This document shows positions 43,470 to 50,403 of a stretch of 50,403 nucleotides of DNA, piece by piece. This stretch comes from Thermoplasmata archaeon. Lineage in GTDB: Archaea; Thermoplasmatota; Thermoplasmata; Sysuiplasmatales; Sysuiplasmataceae. The stretch spans positions 1 through 50,403 of the forward strand of contig JAJZXY010000017.1 of the NCBI GenBank assembly GCA_021806165.1. The letters run 5' to 3'. Position numbers and translations under genes: made by a program. Each line of letters starts with the position of its first letter. The stretch's first letter is position 1. Below the pieces are notes generated by a model. The model searched no databases, was not told the DNA's origin, and was given only the letters and a program-made list of their open reading frames with translations.

Positions 43470-46400
43470 TTAATCGTTTGCATCGCCGTTTGACGAATCT
43501 CCGTCCACGCCCACAAACTCCTCTATTCCCCTGTTCATGTACCTCTTTTTCAGCTCAACCGTGTCAAGCTCCTCGAACATCTTCCCTATCATTGCAAGGT
43601 CCTTCTGGTCGAATGTGAGCCTGTTGATCGCAGCAAGCATCACCGCCCCTCCATCGACCACCTTCTGCATGACATTCTCCATCATTGCAATAACCCTGAT
43701 CATGTTGTTGTTTGCAAGCAGGTATTCCACGCCGTCGAGGAAAACCACTGCATTGTCATGCCTTTCTAGGAATGAGATGATTGCGCTTGTGATGACAGAC
43801 AGCTTCGACGGGTCAAGATTGTTGTTGCCCACGACCTGTGTGAGCCATCTCAGGTCTGCTGTTCCCAGGTCATACTTCTCCCTGAGCTTGGACGGATGCT
43901 CCCTGCTGATCACAAGGGCGTCGAAGCCGGCAGATATGAGGTCCAGCAGGGTGGCGTATGCCACGGCAGGCTTCTCTTCTGAGACGGCATAGCTGAAGCC
44001 CCGCCTGAGCTCAAAGCGCATGCCGCGGATTTCAGCGTGCCTCTCCATTACAAGGCCGGTCCCGCCCGGAGTCGCCTTCTCCTGCCTCACCGCCCCCTCA
44101 TCCCTGGCGTAGAGGACAGTTCCGCGCTTCTTCCCCCTGTCTGTTATCTGCTTACCTGAAACGTGTATCCTCCTCATGGTGTTGCCCACATGGAAGGTGT
44201 ATTCTCCTTCGAAGCGCTCCCCCTTGCGTATCGATTCCATGAAATCCACAACCTGCAGAGAATCGGTGTCGCTCAGCAGCTCCACCAGCTTTGGCGCCCT
44301 GTCGCTCCCGTCAAGCCCGAGCATCTTTCTCGCAATGCTGTTGGCGAAGGATATGGCTCCTTCGTTGTCAATGCGTATGATGCCACCTTCTATCCCGTCC
44401 AGGAGTTCAGTCAGCTCTGCCTTCTTGAGCTCTGCCTTCCTCTTCATCAGCTTCTCCTGCTTGAGCGCCTCGATGGTCTTTATGGAGGCGGTTATGTTGG
44501 AGCTGAGTCTCTCAAGAATCCAGACATCATTCTCGTTGAAACCCTGTCCCCCAAGCTTGTTTATCAGCAGGATAAAGAGCGGAGGAAGACCGCTCTCCCT
44601 GGCGGTCACGGGGTATATCATCAGATTCTGTATCAGCCCCGCCGACACATCCTGTGCTATGAGCCCGTCAGATGCGTCATTTACAATGCTCTCCATCCCC
44701 TTCTCCATGGATTTGATTGCAAGCTTCTCAATGAATTCCGGGACCCTTGTATCATAATATCCGTTCCACTCTATGTTGGATGAGCTCAGGAGGCCCACAA
44801 GCGCATATTCAGAGCCAATCAGGTGGCCTGCGGCGGACGACACGGCGTCGAGCATCCTGCCGAACTCGCCCTGCCTGACAATGCTCCGCGACATCTCGTC
44901 TATCAGGTTGAGAAGGCCTGTCCTGTGCCTCTCCTGACTGAGTGCCGTAAGCTGCCTGACCTTGGCCGAGAGCGTCTTGAGCAGTTCCGAGAAGAATGCC
45001 TCACCGGCAGACATGTCATTCTCCCTGTCATAGCCAGCCACCACGAGGTAGTCCATTGCATCCATTGATGATATCTTCCCCACAAGGAGGCTGTTGGAGA
45101 AGAATGAGTGGAAGGGCAGGTCCTCCCCCTCCTGGCGCAGACTGGTTATCTTCTTCCTGCTCTGTATTGCCGTGACGAGCACCTGCGCCTGCTCCATGGC
45201 CATCCTCTCCGGAGGCTGCGGCATGCCGCTGAAGGCCGTGGCAGCCATCCTGTCGAATGATGAATTTGAATAGTTAACCAGGTAGACTGCTGTGAGTGAG
45301 CAGCCTGCAAGGTCCGCGATTGCAGGAACCGCCTTCTCAAAGAGTCTTGTCATGTCCGTTTCCGCGTACACCAGGTCTTTGAAGTATGAACCCTTCTTCG
45401 CCCTGAGCAGCTCATCGCTGTCTATCTTCCTGTCATTAATTTTCGAGTACCTCAGTTCAAAGAAGCTGAGCAGCTTCTGCAGCAGGTGCCCCCTGAACAG
45501 CTGCCTGGACTTGGCCTGCTGGAATCCAAGCCCCATGAATACCGACTCACACCCTGCCGATCCGCCGCCGCTGTAGGCAAGCATGTATGGCGCTCCAAGA
45601 CCGGAGCCGTCTCCGGCCGCATCCGTATCGAGCGTGAAACCGAGCCTGTCGCATGCATCCTCCACACTGTACATATCTTCGATGATGCACACATTGTTGG
45701 CAAGCCTCACCCCCTGCTTCTTCAGCGCCTCCATCTCCTCCCCCTTCAGCTCCCTTGCCGCATTGGGCCGCATCACGGGCCTGAAGGCAACGCACCTGAA
45801 GATGTCTGAACCTGCCATCCTCACGTAGAGCGCTCCAGAATCACACCCCGAGAATTCGGAGCACCTCCTGAGCATCCTCGGCGCCAGCGTCTCCTGCCCC
45901 TCCTCCCTGAGCTCCTCGATGAACTCCTCCGCCAGCTGGGAGGAGAGCATTGCCTCCGTCTCCTTCTCCTGCACTATCTTTCTCATCTCCACCGCTGCAT
46001 TCGCCCTCTCCATCACTGTGGAGAGCTGCCTGGCGACCAGAGATATGACATCCATGTCCTCAGGCGAGTATCCCCTCTTCCCCGACCTGTGCAGTGTTAT
46101 TACACCAATATCCTCCTTGATGCTCTTGATTGGTATGACAAGTATGGATTCGGGCTCATTCGGCGCACCGGGCATGTTGACAGCACGGAGGTCTGCCCTG
46201 GCGTCGTTGATGATTTCAGGCTTGTCGTTCGATATTGCCTTCCCCACGATGCCTTCCCCTATCGCCACGGAGAAGGACAGCATCTCCTCCGCAAAGAGAC
46301 CCCTGGACGTTACAGGAATGAGTGTGCTCCTCGATTCGTTCAGCACATAGAACACGGAAATGGTGGAGGGCACAACAGATTCGATGAATGACAGCGACTC

Positions 46401-47561
46401 GTCGGCAATCTTGACAGGATCTGACTCCCTGTGCAGAAGCAGCATCTCCTCCAGAAGCATGTTGCGAAGGAGCACCTTCCTGTCCCTGTCCGAAATGAAT
46501 ATGCTTGATGTCAGCCTTTCCGAGAGCATTGTGGAAACAAGCTCAATGTCCCTGAGCTCGCTCTCGCTGTACGGCGAGCTCCTGCGGCTCTCAAGAATCA
46601 GCAGCGCATTGTGTCTTGAGTGTGTTTCCAACGGCACGAGCGCGGCCCACCTGACCCCGGTACCCAGAGGGCGGTAGCCGGATGTTTCAATGTCACCGAT
46701 GACTAGCTTCTCCTTCTGTCCCGTCACTGTATGTATTATCTTGCCCAGCCTCATGCTCTGGGGTGTATCGTAGAGCGGTGTCAGCGACTCGCTTATTCCT
46801 GCTAATTCCACCTCCCCTCTCCCCTCGTCAAGGATTATCAGAGCAACGTAGTCGACACCCATCTTCTTCTGTATGGTGTCTGCGGCCCTGTTGAGGAAAC
46901 TGGAGGCGAGTGCGCTGTCCCCTATCTGGCTTCCGAGTTCTATGGCAGCGGCAAGCCTGGCAGAGTGGGCGAGCTGCTCTCCCACGGCGAATTCCCTCTT
47001 GATTATTGAATCAAGAACAACTGTTACAGAAGCAAATGCATCGATCTCCGCCTGCGAGAGAGACCTCCTGCCTCCAGTGTACAGGTAGACGGAAGCGTTG
47101 CCTCTTGAAGTCCCCCTGAAAAGAATGAATTCCGTGCAGCCTGTCGATATCGAGATGCTGTCTATGAGCTCAATACCTGAGGAGGGGCCCCGGACCTTCT
47201 TGACGCTCTCCCCGAAATCTGCATTCAGCGGAAGGAGCTCCTCGTACTTGACCTCCTGGCGTTCGCCAAGCCTGTCCATGTGGGTGGTCCACCTGAATCG
47301 GAGTTCACCGCTGACGACAACGAAGACGGCGAAAACATCTCTCATGTGCAGTGCTATTTTCCTGCTGAAGCCTGTGAGCAGAGAACGCCAGTCGCCCGCC
47401 TCCCTCAGCGCTTCAGTGGCCTGCAGCATTATCTCCGCTGCACCAGAATCCCTTGCCGTCCCATTACCGGCGCCGGTCCCCTGCGCCACCTTCTCAAAGA
47501 TACTCCTCTGAGGTACGAAATCTTCTCCCATCTTCATCTGATTCCCGGCTTTGTCGGGCAA
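43470..47561 (-). CDS. Multi-GAF, PAS and DUF835 sensor protein
   Basis: A soluble protein of 1363 residues. Five to six GAF-like domains run from about 45 to 1050, the clearest being 205-350 and 370-520 with ARSLALGEGIVG-like patterns (SFSVAIGEGIVGKAI, VIPIKSIKEDIGVITL). A PAS domain sits at about 1065-1170, with ELLDGIEGGIIRIDNEGAIS. The C-terminal DUF835 domain (about 1190-1335) has DALVISREHPSKLREKYDL, DLRWLTQVVGNNN and VFLDGVEYLLANNNMIRVI. DUF835 is a Thermoplasmata/Methanomicrobia signalling domain of unknown output. No kinase or DNA-binding domain is present. The start is TTG at 47561 (ATG at 47537 is an alternative), behind AGGGTGAT and a TATA box near 47612-47603. Confidence 0.9.
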   Translation of the reverse strand: MPDKAGNQMKMGEDFVPQRSIFEKVAQGTGAGNGTARDSGAAEIMLQATEALREAGDWRSLLTGFSRKIALHMRDVFAVFVVVSGELRFRWTTHMDRLGERQEVKYEELLPLNADFGESVKKVRGPSSGIELIDSISISTGCTEFILFRGTSRGNASVYLYTGGRRSLSQAEIDAFASVTVVLDSIIKREFAVGEQLAHSARLAAAIELGSQIGDSALASSFLNRAADTIQKKMGVDYVALIILDEGRGEVELAGISESLTPLYDTPQSMRLGKIIHTVTGQKEKLVIGDIETSGYRPLGTGVRWAALVPLETHSRHNALLILESRRSSPYSESELRDIELVSTMLSERLTSSIFISDRDRKVLLRNMLLEEMLLLHRESDPVKIADESLSFIESVVPSTISVFYVLNESRSTLIPVTSRGLFAEEMLSFSVAIGEGIVGKAISNDKPEIINDARADLRAVNMPGAPNEPESILVIPIKSIKEDIGVITLHRSGKRGYSPEDMDVISLVARQLSTVMERANAAVEMRKIVQEKETEAMLSSQLAEEFIEELREEGQETLAPRMLRRCSEFSGCDSGALYVRMAGSDIFRCVAFRPVMRPNAARELKGEEMEALKKQGVRLANNVCIIEDMYSVEDACDRLGFTLDTDAAGDGSGLGAPYMLAYSGGGSAGCESVFMGLGFQQAKSRQLFRGHLLQKLLSFFELRYSKINDRKIDSDELLRAKKGSYFKDLVYAETDMTRLFEKAVPAIADLAGCSLTAVYLVNYSNSSFDRMAATAFSGMPQPPERMAMEQAQVLVTAIQSRKKITSLRQEGEDLPFHSFFSNSLLVGKISSMDAMDYLVVAGYDRENDMSAGEAFFSELLKTLSAKVRQLTALSQERHRTGLLNLIDEMSRSIVRQGEFGRMLDAVSSAAGHLIGSEYALVGLLSSSNIEWNGYYDTRVPEFIEKLAIKSMEKGMESIVNDASDGLIAQDVSAGLIQNLMIYPVTARESGLPPLFILLINKLGGQGFNENDVWILERLSSNITASIKTIEALKQEKLMKRKAELKKAELTELLDGIEGGIIRIDNEGAISFANSIARKMLGLDGSDRAPKLVELLSDTDSLQVVDFMESIRKGERFEGEYTFHVGNTMRRIHVSGKQITDRGKKRGTVLYARDEGAVRQEKATPGGTGLVMERHAEIRGMRFELRRGFSYAVSEEKPAVAYATLLDLISAGFDALVISREHPSKLREKYDLGTADLRWLTQVVGNNNLDPSKLSVITSAIISFLERHDNAVVFLDGVEYLLANNNMIRVIAMMENVMQKVVDGGAVMLAAINRLTFDQKDLAMIGKMFEELDTVELKKRYMNRGIEEFVGVDGDSSNGDAND

Positions 47562-49489: not shown

Positions 49490-49552
49490 CGGGACACCCC
49501 TGGCGATTCTTATATACAACAACTGTGAAACACGGGCGGGAGTTGGCAGAGG

Positions 49553-49840
49553 ATGCATCAGAGGGATGGGATGCATGTGCGTGACACAGGACTGATCAGC
49601 GCCTCAGGTATAGGCACATTTGTATTCTGTGCAAGAAAGTACAGGTTGAGGACTGAACCCCCTGATGGTTTCGTCGGGACACTGGAGTCAGCCTCTCTCA
49701 GGCGCAGCGGCATAATCTACCACAGGAGGAGGGGTTTGGCACTGCTCGGGCGATTGATACTCCAGCGGCTGATGCTGGTCGCTGCTCTGCTGATCATTTC
49801 AGGGGCAATCGTGCTATGGCTCTCTCCACCACTGCCCTGA
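49553..49840 (+). CDS. Cas4-like nuclease, N-terminal part with membrane helix
   Basis: 95 residues. LISASGIGTFVFCARKYRL carries the first cluster cysteine (Cys26) of Cas4/RecB-type nucleases, and SGIIYHRRRG has the G-x3-H motif I histidine (His57). A membrane helix (about 74-92, LVAALLIISGAIVLWL) follows, and the frame ends there. The rest of the nuclease is in the next gene, which starts 25 bases before this one stops, in the -1 frame. The two parts together hold all needed residues: Cys and His here, Asp, Glu-x-Lys, Gln and three Cys there. A TATA box (CTTATATAC, 49509-49517) precedes. No homopolymer run lies in the overlap. Confidence 0.75.
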   Translation: MHQRDGMHVRDTGLISASGIGTFVFCARKYRLRTEPPDGFVGTLESASLRRSGIIYHRRRGLALLGRLILQRLMLVAALLIISGAIVLWLSPPLP

Positions 49841-50283
49841 CGGTGCTGCTTGCACTGAGCGCCCTACTGCTCTTCCTCTGGTGGAGGATCAGGAGGGTGA
49901 CAGTCAGCCAGGATCTGCTCCTTCGCACAGGAACCCCTCTGGTTTCACGCACTGCAGGAATTGTCGGAAAACCGGATGAAATCAGGAGGAGCGGGGGTTT
50001 CTACATTCCTGTGGAATACAAGAGCGGCATATCAAGGGGCACCCCCAGGGAGTGGGACATCGCCCAGCTTCTGGCATATTGCCTCCTGACTGAGGAAAAC
50101 ATGGGACCGGTGAACGGAGGGGAACTGGCATACAGTGATGCATCCTTCCTCATTCCTTGGAATGGTGAAAACAGGCGGTATCTGCTGTCTGTCTTAAGAA
50201 ACATGAGGAATGGAGACGGAGGCTTGACTGCAGATGTGTGGAAATGCAGAAGTTGTGAATTCGGCAGCTATTGCGGGCGCTAG
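49816..50283 (+). CDS. Cas4-like nuclease, C-terminal catalytic part with membrane helix
   Basis: 155 residues. A membrane helix (about 7-24) is followed by a PD-(D/E)XK core: Asp54 in GIVGKPDEI, Glu67-x-Lys69 in YIPVEYKSG, Gln84 in WDIAQLLAYCLL, and cysteines 144, 147 and 153 in KCRSCEFGSYC, which complete the [4Fe-4S] site begun by Cys26 of the upstream part. This is a Cas4/Dna2-type nuclease fold with a two-helix membrane hairpin inserted between motif I (His) and motif II (Asp). The ATG lies inside the upstream gene with only a weak GGGG before it. No CRISPR repeats or other cas genes are in the window. Either a genuine two-subunit form or a one-base frameshift. Confidence 0.8.
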   Translation: MALSTTALTVLLALSALLLFLWWRIRRVTVSQDLLLRTGTPLVSRTAGIVGKPDEIRRSGGFYIPVEYKSGISRGTPREWDIAQLLAYCLLTEENMGPVNGGELAYSDASFLIPWNGENRRYLLSVLRNMRNGDGGLTADVWKCRSCEFGSYCGR

Positions 50284-50307
50284 TGTGCTGTTACACAAAT
50301 AGCTAGT

Positions 50308-50317
50308 GTTATATATC
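50308..50317 (+). promoter_or_regulatory. TATA box of the edge gene
   Basis: GTTATATATC about 25 bases before the GTG at 50337; leaderless start expected. Confidence 0.45.
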
Positions 50318-50336
50318 TTCATGCCAGTCAGGTGTC

Positions 50337-50403
50337 GTGCGCAAAGCTGTATCTATCACAGTCACACCCGAGGAACGGCTGCAGCTTGAAAAATGGAGCC
50401 GCG
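50337..50403 (+). CDS. IS630-type transposase, first 22 codons (cut by window)
   Basis: The frame from the GTG at 50337 reads MRKAVSITVTPEERLQLEKW and is open to the window end. Transposases of the IS630/Tc1 group often begin with such an ITLTPEER-x2-LE-x-W segment before their helix-turn-helix. The part seen is too short to be sure, and the element's ends cannot be located. A TATA box (50308-50317) sits just upstream. Confidence 0.55.
   Translation, partial: MRKAVSITVTPEERLQLEKWSR

Follow-up and report, generated by a model that had tools for sequence, protein, structure and literature searches.

A membrane-anchored Cas4-like nuclease predicted to be divided between two protein chains in Thermoplasmatota and Chloroflexota

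INTRODUCTION

The PD-(D/E)XK nuclease domains of Dna2, MGME1 and the AddAB/AdnAB enzymes are parts of soluble single chains or of helicase fusions. To our knowledge, none of them carries a membrane hairpin, or a chain break at the site equivalent to the one described below. Cas4 and solo-Cas4 proteins (PF01930, TIGR00372) carry PD-(D/E)XK motifs, including QxxxY, together with a four-cysteine Fe-S pattern. The survey of solo-Cas4 proteins by Hudaiberdiev et al. (2017) reported the four cysteines in all Cas4 and a monophyletic solo-Cas4 set in many Chloroflexi, and its text holds no wording on split proteins, transmembrane proteins or frameshifts (PMC5704561). We searched open-licence papers for accounts of a Cas4 that is split or transmembrane, and there were none.

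A second described system that resembles the locus reported here is the translationally coupled overlapping gene pair. Termination-reinitiation has been measured for archaeal pairs of this kind, which are enriched for genes that encode subunits of complexes (PMC6728339, PMC10666635).

Here we describe two overlapping archaeal genes, ORF1 and ORF2, whose products belong to the same superfamily as the nucleases named above and very probably make up one membrane-anchored Cas4-like PD-(D/E)XK nuclease in which both chains are obligate. ORF1 would supply the first cysteine, the motif I histidine and one membrane helix, and ORF2 would supply a second membrane helix, the catalytic core (GKPD, ExK and QxxxY) and the other three cysteines. 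The chains are predicted to join as a two-helix membrane hairpin without its outer turn, and the nuclease core would assemble at the inner membrane face, where a metal site and an Fe-S cluster would each be common to both chains. No naturally divided Cas4-like nuclease of this kind appears to have been described.

RESULTS AND DISCUSSION

Two overlapping genes with a recurrent break

The window, by which we mean the whole stretch of 50,403 nucleotides that was analysed, is the entire contig C29 of a 1.88-Mb archaeal assembly of metagenome type (33 contigs, 95.9% complete). Close relatives of the host genome include Candidatus Sysuiplasma superficiale, a member of the Thermoplasmatota, and the host archaeon is labelled as acid-mine-type. 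The original prediction described two ORFs that share 25 bases in the -1 frame, with the break outside a homopolymer and with an ATG of its own for the second ORF. The sequence agrees with each of these statements, and the coordinates were correct throughout. The features of the locus are as follows.

49510..49516, + strand: TTATATA, read from the sequence; a possible archaeal TATA box of the ORF1-ORF2 transcription unit
49553..49840, + strand: ORF1, small subunit, 95 residues; N-terminal Cas4-like segment (Cys26, Gly53, His57) with a membrane helix at its end
49628..49630, + strand: ORF1 Cys26, predicted first Fe-S ligand; invariant in 44 archaeal ORF1 sequences and across domains
49721..49723, + strand: ORF1 His57, motif I histidine of the RecB/Cas4 type; at least 90% in the archaeal set, invariant in the cross-domain set
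49769..49822, + strand: membrane helix 1, ORF1 residues 73-90, predicted N-in from hydropathy and K+R flanks
49816..49840, + strand: ORF1/ORF2 overlap of 25 bases, phase -1; identical overlap site in six family relatives
49816..50283, + strand: ORF2, large subunit, 155 residues, own ATG; N-terminal membrane helix, PD-(D/E)XK core and three cysteines
49828..49887, + strand: membrane helix 2, ORF2 residues about 5-24, predicted C-in; helix 2-26 in the AF2 model
49975..49977, + strand: ORF2 Asp54 within GKPD, motif II; invariant
50014..50022, + strand: ORF2 Glu67-x-Lys69, motif III; invariant
50065..50079, + strand: ORF2 Gln84...Tyr88, QxxxY motif; invariant
50245..50274, + strand: ORF2 Cys144, Cys147 and Cys153, predicted Fe-S ligands 2-4; at least 90%

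After its helix, ORF2 presents its motifs in the order GKPD, PVEYK, QLLAY and CxxC...C. One TGG is common to the ORF2 start codon and to the codon for ORF1 Trp89, and a scan of the overlap revealed neither a homopolymer nor a slippery heptamer.

Two other observations concern the contig itself. Copies of its last 124 bases (50280-50403) lie at the ends of two further contigs of the assembly, C1 and C12 (99-100%), and thus contig C29 breaks within a repeated element. On the - strand, positions 43470-47561 encode a protein of 1363 residues with the appearance of a multi-domain sensor, and homologous large ORFs occupy the corresponding place at loci L035-L037.

The original prediction proposed a search of archaeal genomes for the same split point. 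We searched 400 genomes of the class and 293 genomes of the phylum, and then paired the resulting loci by profile. The pair is present at 84 distinct loci, each with a homologous ORF1, in at least six Thermoplasmatota families (f1, f9, f17, f26, f31 and f48). Within the family, the gene was found in six relatives, and in every one of them the break falls at the identical place; a saccharopine-dehydrogenase-like gene adjoins the pair in these relatives wherever that side is in view. Values of dN/dS for both ORFs, computed where possible for close species pairs and outside the overlap, are mostly 0.03-0.3; by this measure, both genes are under purifying selection.

Catalytic residues, fold and relation to Cas4

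ORF1 and ORF2 had been proposed to hold a complete Cas4/PD-(D/E)XK residue set between them, and every residue named in that proposal was confirmed and found to be conserved. To evaluate conservation, we aligned 44 ORF1/ORF2 pairs, which came from four archaeal families and from named metagenome contigs. The invariant residues of ORF2 are G51, P53, D54, P65, E67, K69, Q84 and Y88, and C144, C147 and C153 are kept in at least 90% of the pairs. For ORF1, C26 and G53 are invariant and H57 is present in at least 90% of the 44 archaeal sequences, and all three positions are invariant in the cross-domain set (n=31). Judged from these alignments, the conservation greatly exceeds what chance would give. 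The catalytic motifs of the RecB/Cas4 type (H; D; ExK; QxxxY) are complete only across both chains, and the four-cysteine Fe-S pattern (one N-terminal, three C-terminal) is present, as a sequence pattern, across both chains as well.

ORF2 of the window scores 30.7 bits against Pfam PDDEXK_1 (cut-off 22) and lies below the cut-offs of both Cas4 family models (52 versus 65 bits for TIGR00372 cas4, and 19.5 versus 22.7 for PF01930 Cas_Cas4). Homologues in f17 (68.2) and at locus L039 (75.4) exceed the curated Cas4 cut-off. The ORF2 profile matches the solved Cas4 structures 7mi4 (4e-9) and 4r5q (4e-8), and the PADLOC models for Cas4 and DruK also match ORF2. ORF1 gave no significant family model and, when compared alone with solved structures, no significant match (Cas4 4r5q at E 0.17). 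Because the NCBI model scores some ORF2 genes as 'cas4' and no family model matches ORF1 significantly, half of the enzyme has likely been overlooked in annotation. The Chloroflexi solo-Cas4 proteins surveyed previously may include some of the present ORF2 proteins.

Modelled alone, ORF2 has an AF2 pLDDT of 88, a best Foldseek match to the Cas4 structure 7mi5_A (E 6e-6) and a TM-score of 0.38 (target length) against Cas4 8d3l_I. A composite model was built from the homologous in-frame pair at locus L077 as one chain, with the stop read as glycine and with unpaired homologues in the alignment (AlphaFold pLDDT 87, pTM 0.81). In this composite, a single long helix leads out of the motif I region and continues as membrane helix 1, and a further helix in the membrane is present as well. 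Its best Foldseek match is 7mi4_A (E 2.4e-7). The composite appears to resemble Cas4 much more than does ORF2 of the window alone, although the TM-scores against 8d3l_I (0.65 versus 0.38) are only indicative because the two models differ in species and in alignment. Dna2 and MGME1 also match the models structurally. The PDDEXK_1 score, the motifs and the Cas4 fold found by Foldseek all argue for the Cas4-like nuclease call of the original prediction, and nuclease activity is predicted.

The pair thus shares with Cas4 and solo-Cas4 the PD-(D/E)XK motifs including QxxxY, the four-cysteine pattern and the fold. It departs from them in being made of two polypeptides, each with its own membrane helix where the insertion lies, and in lacking neighbouring cas1/cas2, as well as CRISPR linkage more generally. 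The window ORF2 also departs from Cas4 in falling below the curated cut-offs.

A membrane hairpin without its outer turn

Two helices had been placed between motif I and motif II, one in each piece, and this placement holds in the window. A hydrophobic helix is predicted in each chain of all 84 pairs. Positive charges precede helix 1 in 81 of the 84 (N-in) and follow helix 2 in 77 (C-in). These positive-inside flanks lead to the prediction that both nuclease halves lie in the cytoplasm and that the break falls in the outer turn of the hairpin. The helix and charge predictions thereby support a membrane-anchored form. Membrane embedding of a Cas4-like protein is not peculiar to this organism, since one-chain relatives with 2-8 helices span the phylum.

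Gene context and role

The pair had been described as lying outside CRISPR systems, and the evidence agrees. A crude scan for CRISPR-like arrays found none in the window, and no Cas1 was found in the whole assembly. In f17, smc lies upstream at 33 of 33 split loci (Pfam SMC_N 2e-21 in L077) and an ScpA-like gene directly precedes ORF1. The ScpA-like call is a weak match (2e-5 for a five-member profile against ScpA 6ivh), and neither Pfam nor NCBIfam recognizes this gene. A tyrosyl-tRNA-synthetase-like gene follows the f17 pair, with fen1 and radB nearby at some loci. In f9, rpl24e is upstream and ndk is downstream at 18 of 30 loci. Because gene context differs from lineage to lineage, no single functional partner emerges.

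The original prediction suggested a function in defence, competence or conjugation, for which we obtained no positive evidence. In its most developed form, this idea would make the pair a defence or anti-mobile-element nuclease that acts on DNA entering via the membrane, in CRISPR-independent immunity or in competence control. Membrane position, kinship to Cas4 and the matches of ORF2 to PADLOC models are what such a nuclease might be expected to show, and elsewhere nucleases linked to SMC can have a defensive function (PMC10586767, PMC10123090). However, two scans of viral contigs revealed no relatives of the pair, and the neighbouring genes that were seen serve housekeeping or chromosome maintenance. 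The near-constant presence of the pair in some lineages, its low dN/dS and the predicted cytoplasmic position of the nuclease half likewise count against defence, which we regard as unlikely. Gene context makes an ancient housekeeping function in maintaining DNA more likely than defence, perhaps a function tied to SMC in some lineages. The most likely specific role, which we propose tentatively, would be DNA end-processing or degradation in chromosome maintenance at the membrane rather than CRISPR adaptation.

ORF1 and ORF2 occur together even when unlinked

ORF2 could in principle be a solo-Cas4 that works alone, with ORF1 as an unrelated membrane peptide encoded next to it. ORF2 does have a confident fold by itself. 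However, ORF1 bears exactly the cysteine, glycine and histidine that ORF2 is missing, and one-chain forms have an N-terminal half that is homologous to it (see below). The distribution of the two genes in Chloroflexota also bears on this question. On a Thermoflexus contig that also bears recA- and sigma-factor-like genes, a relative of ORF2 occurs with no neighbouring ORF1, and the ORF1 profile finds ORF1 elsewhere in the same genome (E 6e-16), where it has its own ATG preceded by GGAGG. Throughout the order around Thermoflexus, both genes are present in 9 of 9 genomes and adjacent in none. For example, in genome G620 the two genes are on one contig (C1) at positions 244709 and 3051903, which are 2.8 Mb apart. 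In the rest of the Chloroflexota the genes adjoin, with overlaps or with gaps of tens to hundreds of nucleotides (at most about 680 bases).

Among 201 genomes drawn across Chloroflexota, ORF2 is present in 55 and ORF1 in 53. Both genes occur in 52 genomes, ORF2 only in 3, ORF1 only in 1 and neither in 145 (Fisher p 2.6e-43, a value that is overstated because the species are related). The three genomes with ORF2 and no detected ORF1 are what a self-sufficient ORF2 would predict, whereas the co-occurrence of ORF1 with ORF2 even when the genes are unlinked is not, and we consider an independent ORF2 quite improbable.

Separate chains rather than a frameshifted product

An obligate pair might still be translated as one protein if a programmed -1 ribosomal frameshift fused ORF1 and ORF2 around the two-helix hairpin, as the original prediction had allowed. 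ORF2 is in phase -1 relative to ORF1 at 69 of the 84 archaeal loci, including all loci of f1, f9, f31, f26 and f48 sampled in the genome search. One-chain homologues exist, and some ORF2 genes have no canonical start. Phase -1 is nevertheless also expected from the ATGA and TGATG overlaps that are common among coupled pairs (PMC6728339, PMC10666635), and a slippery heptamer is present in just 3 of the 69 phase -1 overlaps, that of the window not among them. The other loci are in phase +1 (11 of 84) or in phase 0 with an intervening stop (4 of 84). At L077, L095 and L096, the ORF2 ATG directly follows the ORF1 stop in frame; at L109 the ORF1 stop abuts or nearly abuts an in-frame ORF2 start; and at L041 a 7-nt gap separates the two genes. 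The unlinked genes of Thermoflexales cannot be joined by frameshifting at all. A general programmed frameshift is therefore untenable, and we judge fusion by this route to be even less probable than an independent ORF2. The occurrence of all three phases, in-frame stops, gaps and unlinked genes instead supports a real two-subunit arrangement, which the original prediction had offered as the other possibility.

Although the assembly is of metagenome type with 33 contigs, it is vanishingly improbable that the split reflects faulty sequencing or assembly or a pseudogene in decay, because the same break recurs in six independent family relatives and in at least five other archaeal families, and because both homologous ORFs are under purifying selection with their catalytic residues intact.

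Possible signals for the ORF2 start

In the host archaeon, the second chain would probably be produced by termination-reinitiation or by internal initiation at the overlap. An ATG inside the end of ORF1, combined with phase -1, fits termination-reinitiation in the window by likeness to the measured archaeal pairs, and a coupled start of this type would aid stoichiometric assembly. The locus shares with translationally coupled pairs (PMC6728339, PMC10666635) a short phase -1 overlap and two products meant to assemble. It differs in that neither product has the whole of the predicted catalytic and metal site, and in the unlinked position of the genes in Thermoflexales.

At the f1 loci L005-L010, the NTG start of ORF2 (ATG, TTG or CTG) always lies within the TGG of a conserved ORF1 tryptophan codon, and CTG alone occupies this position in L008. 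At some loci (e.g. L008, L076, L084 and L150), including several of L076, L084 (f31) and L148-L153 (f48), none of the codons ATG, GTG and TTG lies close to where ORF2 should start. An ATAG overlap, in which a possible ATA start overlies a TAG stop, is found in L076, L148, L149, L150 and L151, and several of the f48 examples are directly preceded by GAGGTGAT or GGGTGAT. Initiation at the ATAG overlaps is possibly non-canonical. We evaluated an internal ribosome-binding site by codon-usage-matched synonymous randomization of the ORF1 end, and rejected it as a general explanation because enrichment at the junction is confined to f48.

A separate observation concerns the other end of ORF2. At four f17 loci (L104, L105, L111 and L116), a lone TAG terminates ORF2, and hundreds of codons follow it in frame before the next stop. 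Possible read-through of TAG in this lineage may merit attention.

One-chain relatives

The original prediction also raised the question of whether a single fused protein with the helix insert exists. One-chain transmembrane Cas4-like homologues do occur across Thermoplasmatota (e.g. L154-L166), as a separate clade, and the host genome holds both forms, split on C29 and one-chain on C15 (G000:C15, L074). The ORF1 and ORF2 profiles correspond, in order, to the N-terminal and C-terminal halves of these homologues. The one-chain proteins share with the pair the motif order, the helices between motif I and motif II and the Cas4-type core. They differ in their single chain, in their clade, in a TPD-motif neighbour and in their 2, 4 or 8 predicted membrane helices (L154-L170 and L027), numbers that look as if the hairpin had been repeatedly duplicated inside the nuclease fold.

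In unrooted trees of the short nuclease core, the one-chain forms make up one side of a single branch (SH-aLRT 85 to 95), and the rest of the tree consists of the split forms of archaea and Chloroflexota. Because a single branch separates them, one change between the one-chain and split states suffices.

The one-chain gene adjoins a TPD-motif gene (PF14811, CDIN1-like) at seven loci in f1, f3, f19 and f20, and the one-chain paralogue lies directly downstream of it in L074, L022, L021 and L028. The one-chain nuclease and the TPD-motif gene are thus a candidate functional pair.

CONCLUDING REMARKS

We think it quite possible, though somewhat short of probable, that the two-chain proteins constitute an unrecognized family of obligate membrane nucleases in Thermoplasmatota and Chloroflexota, with an f17 member that serves chromosome maintenance from an SMC-ScpA operon. 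If this reading is true, nuclease activity depends on assembly in the membrane, and ORF2 assayed on its own would probably be dead. Enzymes in which one active site and one metal cluster are each shared out between two membrane-bound chains are rare. Assembly, topology and function can be put to a direct test with the unlinked genes of bacteria, the one-chain homologues and the archaeal operon that contains smc. These also tie solo-Cas4 biology to the membrane, and possibly to chromosome segregation.
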